Under the pieces are notes generated by a model that saw only the letters and a program-made list of their open reading frames with translations, was not told where the DNA came from and did no database searches. Made by a program: the position numbers and the translations under genes. From contig NZ_JAVHUY010000034.1 of NCBI RefSeq assembly GCF_031085175.1, positions 1-64,000 of the forward strand: a stretch of DNA of 64,000 nt. Direction: 5' to 3'. Positions 11,881 through 59,748 of the stretch are shown here, in pieces; position 1 is the stretch's first letter; each line of letters starts with the position of its first letter. The DNA is from Phytohabitans maris. Its GTDB lineage: Bacteria > Actinomycetota > Actinomycetes > Mycobacteriales > Micromonosporaceae.

Positions 11881-11928
11881 GATCGTGGTATTTCAGTGCC
11901 CCTATCGGGGCACCCATGTACCACGATC
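11881..11928. repeat. 48-bp palindromic element, family B copy 1
   Basis: Outer arms GATCGTGGTA (11881-11890) and TACCACGATC (11919-11928) pair perfectly. An inner hairpin GTGCCCC-TATC-GGGGCAC occupies 11896-11913. The same design and length recur at 46710-46757. Both copies lie in intergenic DNA. Confidence 0.88.
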
Positions 11929-12028: not shown

Positions 12029-12126
12029 TCCCACCGCGAAGGGTGAGGCCGCGGGAATGCACCCCGCGCGACGGTCCGGACCACCGCGGACGTCGCGGTC
12101 GCTCGAATCTTCCTCTTGAAGGCGCG

Positions 12127-21213: not shown

Positions 21214-21269
21214 TGTGATCGAAGCTCCCTTCAAGTCGCTAGAACGACTTGGAGGGAGCTTCGATCACA
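21214..21269. repeat. long palindromic element, family A copy 1 (25-bp arms)
   Basis: Left arm 21214-21238 and right arm 21245-21269 pair over 25 bases with one G-T mismatch; the loop is CTAGAA. It is preceded by CCTCCCCACGC (21202-21212). The same element occurs at 59693-59748. Here the right arm is coding: it gives the last residues VIEAPSKSF of the dehydrogenase on the minus strand, and the TAG stop lies in the loop. Confidence 0.92.
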
Positions 21270-46709: not shown

Positions 46710-46757
46710 GATCGTGGTATCCAGGTGCCCTCGGAGGGGCACCGGGATACCACGATC
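46710..46757. repeat. 48-bp palindromic element, family B copy 2
   Basis: Outer arms GATCGTGGTATCC (46710-46722) and GGATACCACGATC (46745-46757) pair perfectly over 13 bases. An inner hairpin GGTGCCC / GGGCACC (46724-46730, 46737-46743) follows. It has the same length and core as the element at 11881-11928. It lies in the 260-bp gap between lpd and secA2, upstream of lpd. Confidence 0.88.
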
Positions 46758-59692: not shown

Positions 59693-59748
59693 CGTGATCG
59701 AAGCTCCCGTCAAGTCGTTCTAGCGAGTTGACGGGAGCTTCGATCACG
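59693..59748. repeat. long palindromic element, family A copy 2 (25-bp arms)
   Basis: Arms 59693-59717 and 59724-59748 pair over 25 bases with one mismatch; the loop is TTCTAG. It is preceded by CCTCCCCACGC at 59681-59691, as in copy 1 (21214-21269), with which it shares the core GTGATCGAAGCTCCC and TCAAGTCG. The loop is inverted relative to the flank when compared with copy 1. Confidence 0.92.

Follow-up and report, generated by a model that had tools for sequence, protein, structure and literature searches.

The best-studied REPs are tied to Y1/HUH transposases, and a high-copy REP-like family of an actinomycete genus for which no such enzyme is found raises the question of how it spreads. 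REPs of Proteobacteria are also known from the so-called type 1 association, in which all copies of an insertion sequence (IS) are found at one point of the REP, sometimes at its axis of palindromy (PMC1525189, in the part dealing with this association). As far as the pertinent part of PMC3733652 goes, the phyla given for the GTAG repeats exclude Actinobacteria.

The family considered here, family B, has two copies in the stretch of 64,000 nucleotides that was analysed (the window), which belongs to a Phytohabitans genome of 9.87 Mb in 95 contigs. Taken in the general sense, a REP is a short palindrome occurring more than 100 times per genome and outside the genes, and B answers this description with 48 bp and 152 exact copies, 72 of the 77 copies sampled lying between genes, one inside a called gene and four at sequence edges. 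Like the GTAG REPs with their RAYT transposases, as characterised in the relevant part of PMC3733652, the B copies are short, high-copy and mostly extragenic palindromes, but they are devoid of the GTAG tag by which GTAG REPs and REPINs are defined (directly adjacent in 0 of 77, within 8 nt in 2 of 77) and of a Y1 transposase in six genomes. With the CGTC REPs, in the corresponding part of the same source, B shares the state of a high-copy palindrome apparently without a dedicated transposase, whereas the defining CGTC tag adjoins none of the 77 copies (it falls within 8 nt of 15) and the host phyla given for the CGTC repeats are different (PMC3733652). Family B works like a REP, yet it lacks the defining marks of both the GTAG and the CGTC classes. 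No Rfam match at the gathering threshold was obtained in the window and five loci, and no paper on family B was found in the open-licence literature.

Anatomy, copy number and placement of family B

Two 48-bp elements with a common core had been reported in the preliminary description, and both were recovered; their GATCGTGGTA / TACCACGATC arms are exact, and they contain the inner GTGCCC / GGGCAC. Copy 1 (11881..11928), recognised by sequence, fold and context, occupies the spacer between two convergent genes whose products, read from the translations, we take to be a short-chain dehydrogenase and a membrane transporter. It comprises the exactly matching left arm GATCGTGGTA (11881..11890, plus strand), the left inner stem GTGCCCC (11896..11902, plus strand), a 4-bp centre, or dyad (11903..11906), the right inner stem GGGGCAC (11907..11913, plus strand) and the likewise exact right arm (11919..11928, minus strand; TACCACGATC as read on the plus strand), the stems being taken from the DNA fold and the centre from the fold together with the junctions of insertions in other copies; the equivalent of these central 4 bp falls inside the IS-duplicated stretch of interrupted copies elsewhere. 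Copy 2 (46710..46757), identified on the same three grounds, lies in a spacer between tandem genes, presumably for a dihydrolipoamide dehydrogenase-like and a SecA-like protein, judging from the translations; its arms are again exact, GATCGTGGTA at 46710..46719 on the plus strand and, at 46748..46757 on the minus strand, the arm that reads TACCACGATC on the plus strand, with the 4-bp centre of the DNA fold at 46732..46735. Folded as single-stranded DNA, the two copies are much more stable than their shuffles (z of -7.66 and -9.54). Copy 2 is paired nearly end to end, and in copy 1 a 5x5 internal loop, unpaired, separates the arms from the inner stem, so that the assertion that pairing is kept is fully true of just one of the two. 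Beside copy 1, at 12038-12100, there is another intergenic repeat of the form CCGCGACGTCCGCGGTGGTCC...CCGCGGCCTCACCCTCCGCG, which recurs in several spacers of the window genome, P. suffuscus and P. flavus.

The search for exact arm pairs gave the 152 copies in the window genome and none with a reversed-pattern control, while P. suffuscus has 337 copies, P. flavus 94, and three further congeners 10, 0 and 0. Matches were found in 5 of 150 sampled Micromonosporaceae genomes, namely four Phytohabitans and one of another genus; outside Phytohabitans, 1 of 144 sampled Micromonosporaceae genomes was positive, with a single copy in a genome that is 69%-complete. A match in a Desulfomonilaceae MAG was taken as chance, its interior being non-palindromic and its flanks unrelated. 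The possibility that no further copies exist, which had been set as grounds for giving up the family, is thus rejected by the many copies in the window genome and two relatives, which establish that the repeat family B is real.

The separation of B from another palindrome of the window, family A (GTGATCRAAGCTCC...GGAGCTTYGATCAC, 54-bp core, window 21214-21269 and 59693-59748), is upheld by the different sequence, the length of 54 bp, and 202 exact copies of A in the window genome against 0 in five congeners. Family A is like B in its fixed length, invariant outer arms, variable inner positions, more than 100 copies and location near intergenic gene ends; it is unlike B in sequence and in being confined to the window species among the six. 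The stretches L190-L209, L170-L189 and G005/G002 contain additional palindromes, about 45-60 bp long, in which GATC occurs close to the ends (AGATCTAGAACG..., AGATCTTGGAGAGTTAGGGC..., CGATCAAGGGCGAACGG..., TTGATCAGGGAGTTCGTGG...).

For the anatomy of the element, 1.27 Mb of its own genome was sampled, chosen partly around known copies, and with at most one arm mismatch allowed it gave 77 copies, 76 of them 48 bp and one 47 bp long. A tolerance of three mismatches added one B-like copy whose two arms are changed identically (L002), a cousin of 45 bp, and one match within a called gene. The arms carry 7 substitutions per 1520 positions, and the interiors of any two copies differ on average at 8.95 of 28 positions. 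Single arms of the uptake-sequence kind were rejected as an explanation, because 148 of 161 exact arms in this sample are paired; of the 13 unpaired ones, 7 face a partner that differs by one mismatch, and the IS1182 element severs 2.

The preliminary description took the differing loops with kept pairing as a sign of selection for structure, and for the window genome this is not supported by the comparison of natural with re-paired halves. At positions 11-16 of the halves, 201 matching cells were counted against 201.8 in re-paired halves, and the folding energy (-32.28) equals that of hybrids (-32.27) and is no better with 35-nt flanks either; only positions 16-22 show a weak excess (462 against 451.9, reached by 39 of 2000 shuffles), and the centre of the element is palindromic less than chance. 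The stem changes without compensation that had been named as a refutation are found in this genome for the inner segment. Interior pairing in P. suffuscus is like that of the window genome (z 0.36, 43 distinct copies), so compensatory interior pairing was discarded for these two, though it exceeds chance in P. flavus (z 3.23, 19 distinct copies). Since inner pairing and folding energy stay at about the level of re-paired and hybrid halves, the element in the window species resembles a pair of conserved half-sites, inverted about a centre of 4 bp, rather than a fold held by pairing. As regards the flanks, said earlier to be unrelated outside the arms, this holds between the two window copies; in the sample from the own genome, however, short shared subfamilies take in 82 of 152 flank sides, copy 2 included, and the other 70 of 152 are without a relative there; in P. 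suffuscus the core is embedded in longer shared repeats.

With genes called by a purpose-built codon model, the 77 copies were assigned to convergent (47), tandem (23) and divergent (2) spacers, the remainder being the copy inside a called gene and the four at sequence edges. In stretches longer than 8 kb, convergent spacers make up 22% of the intergenic bases but take in 38 of the 59 copies classified there (p 4e-12), and 9 of 10 copies are convergent in a sample that was not selected around copies, a 387-kb contig plus the window. The gap to the flanking stop codons ranges from 1 to 963 nt. Copies sit mostly past the 3' ends of genes, above all in convergent spacers, and in annotation the B-bearing spacers are not to be taken for genes or plain terminators. 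A recurrent gene beside the copies was considered and set aside, as the 25 largest clusters formed by the 778 neighbouring proteins seem to be large families of an ordinary kind, and a transposase is absent among these 25.

The position of B changes rapidly between related genomes, as judged by 11 comparisons of orthologous spacers in which one side or both carry a copy; window copy 2 supplies 3 of these comparisons. A homologous copy common to both sides was found in 0 of the 11: nine have a copy on one side, and two have copies on both sides with unrelated flanks (best flank identity 0.37 and 0.33). Two more locus pairs, L115 and L149, compared by eye and kept outside the 11 for having anchors not on both sides, gave no aligned copy. 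Both P. suffuscus (filled L099 against empty L070 and L141) and P. flavus (filled L139 against empty L091 and L135) have repeat units in two states, with the 48-mer or lacking it, the filled ones being longer by about 51-53 bp with an ambiguous junction. A target-site duplication of 2, 3, 4, 5, 6, 8 or 9 nt, the mark of a DDE MITE, was found beside the 48-mer in 0 of 77 copies. The ends TTGATCGRCG were tried as termini of a longer autonomous element and rejected, with few pairs and no such element seen.

Insertion sequences at the dyad

Unpaired arms pointed to B copies interrupted by insertions. Strong IS1182 matches occur at 13 loci of the window genome, and the type scoring 309.8 bits has 8 junctions, every one of which borders on a half-element at a distance of 27 nt from where the arm starts. 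All eight are contig ends, and because the contigs (C1, C4, C23, C32, C36, C62, C85) end inside near-identical copies of the B-targeting element, they count as four insertions, into which they pair with opposite IS ends on either side. Each insertion has a 6-bp duplication (CTGGAG, CTATCG, TTGTAG, ACGCAG), and the 48-bp element could be rebuilt each time; the four rebuilt elements differ, therefore the IS entered resident B copies. One of them, the C32/C62 48-mer, is identical to the intact copy C1:365137 and has similar flanks, and accordingly it is one unit at two loci. The dyad element belongs to the IS1182 family by NF033551 (308.6 bits, cut-off 270); the other 5 strong loci of the window genome are of another subtype and lie outside B.

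Similarly, out of 7 IS1182-like regions examined in P. flavus, 4 of the 4 with GAGCCTGTCGCA ends are in B and the other 3 are not; the duplications are of 4 bp (CAGA, TCTG, TGGA, TATG), with rebuilt lengths of 47, 47, 48 and 48, and these P. flavus relatives give partial matches of about 144 bits, under the NF033551 cut-off. Every copy of the IS type is thus found at one point of the repeat, as in the type 1 association, in the window genome (4 of 4) and among the regions examined in P. flavus (4 of 4). The dyad also received two 139-bp inserts with GAGCCTGTCGCA-type ends (duplications TCCA, TATG), a 1040-bp IS5-family element (TATA; NF033580, 208.6 bits), a 228-bp insert (CAGA) and one of about 898 bp (CCAGAG). 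In L097, an interrupted B copy has an IS4-family gene in its vicinity, but the gene could not be linked to that insertion.

Family B is a dedicated target of one IS1182-family type here and, through a relative, in P. flavus, while P. suffuscus speaks against exclusivity: its two regions with the strongest IS1182 matches lie outside B. IS ends of the GACTCTGCTGGC type adjoin a B arm in 8 of 40 cases over all data. P. suffuscus also has a related arm, GTCCGTGGCGA (e.g. in L130, L132, L126 and L116), which adjoins GACTCTGCTGGC IS ends in 15 of 23 cases and seems to represent a sister family of palindromes, interrupted almost without exception. The IS1182 type confined to B makes a testable case of an IS specialised on one repeat family, and with such specialisation the damage to genes would be limited.

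Explanations for the spread

We consider B to be, with fair probability, a lineage-specific REP-like extragenic palindrome of some Phytohabitans species, that is, a short non-autonomous 48-bp element which occurs alone or within longer repeat units and has spread to intergenic sites. It would consist of two half-sites in inverted orientation, each with GATCGTGGTA, some 5 variable bases and approximately STGCCCC, around the 4-bp centre, and a candidate sequence-specific enzyme may read the arms at each copying event, so that the arms would remain uniform, being recognised at every copying, while the interior drifts. The element would be copied into many intergenic sites and retained mainly past gene ends, chiefly convergent ones, copies close to promoters presumably being weeded out, and the palindrome may present transposases with a two-fold symmetric or cruciform target. 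Transposition of a structured unit, the other reading offered in the preliminary description, is favoured by the patchy species distribution, the absence of shared homologous copies in the 11 spacers and the repeats with and without the 48-mer; the proposed association with a RAYT-like transposase fell away, for the Y1 transposase profile PF01797 had matches in 0 of 6 Phytohabitans genomes and in 5 of 14 controls. Several points weigh against a mobile REP-like element. A job done by every copy in its place would equally explain the uniform arms, the approximately 51-53 bases gained in the filled units give no single clean junction, there is no Y1 transposase in the six genomes and no duplication around the 48-mer (0/77), no fresh insertion was seen, and part of the unit-level spread in P. 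suffuscus may be due to the longer repeats and not to the core.

A cis-acting site at each locus, such as a bidirectional terminator, a roadblock or a 3'-end RNA hairpin for convergent genes, with the arms kept by in-place selection, would agree with the strong convergent bias and nearly empty divergent spacers, the nearly invariant arms and the stable hairpin. However, the composition of the outward flanks shows no run of T such as an intrinsic terminator has, the distances to stop codons are spread from 1 to 963 nt, the 11 spacer comparisons include no shared homologous copy, two congeners have no copy at all and the inner pairing is not conserved in the window genome; moreover, a terminator requires no fixed 10-base arm. 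Such a site is therefore regarded as unlikely.

The transposase of the IS1182-family element confined to B might also multiply B in trans, or B might be a by-product of its transposition, as one could suppose from the confinement of this IS type to B (4/4 here, 4/4 for the P. flavus relative) and from the strong IS1182 matches in the copy-rich genomes (152, 337 and 94 copies), the genomes with 0-10 copies having none above 40 bits. This co-occurrence comes from six related genomes and cannot prove a link, and it is equally expected if the IS merely exploits B; besides, P. suffuscus is richest in copies yet its IS1182 matches are broken, the two regions examined are outside B, and the GACTCTGCTGGC ends there adjoin the GTCCGTGGCGA arms (15/23) more often than B, all of which makes this origin very unlikely. 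Old repeats might also have spread without any dedicated enzyme, solely through gene conversion or homologous recombination between longer intergenic repeats. This would suit the core within longer shared units in P. suffuscus and the free combination of halves of differing types in the window genome, but it is highly improbable given that in the window genome the 48-mer is always complete, even at the flank sides for which the sample contains no relative (70/152), and that conversion by itself seeds no new sites.

Beyond the REP-like reading of B itself, it may be speculated that Phytohabitans has several lineage-specific palindromes of fixed length (B of 48 bp, A of 54 bp and others) spreading without HUH/Y1, and that elements of about 48 bp are multiplied in trans by a DDE transposase with sequence specificity, which might be that of the IS1182-family element landing only in B; we hold this broader scheme to be doubtful.

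Comparison with REP-directed and palindrome-directed IS

The nearest parallels to the insertions at the dyad are the type 1 REPs and IS1272. Like the type 1 REPs in the pertinent part of PMC1525189, B is a high-copy extragenic palindrome with a fixed insertion point and a short direct repeat; unlike them, it has an actinomycete host and a different repeat sequence, and the five IS families given there for type 1 REPs, namely IS3, IS110, IS4, IS256 and IS5, do not include the IS1182 family (PMC1525189). The IS1182-family element of B is like IS1272, as described in the corresponding part of PMC5678879, in belonging to the same family and being aimed at palindromes or inverted repeats. IS1272, however, replaces stem-loops of varied sequence without duplication, whereas the IS of B hits the dyad of one family and duplicates its central 4-6 bp (PMC5678879).
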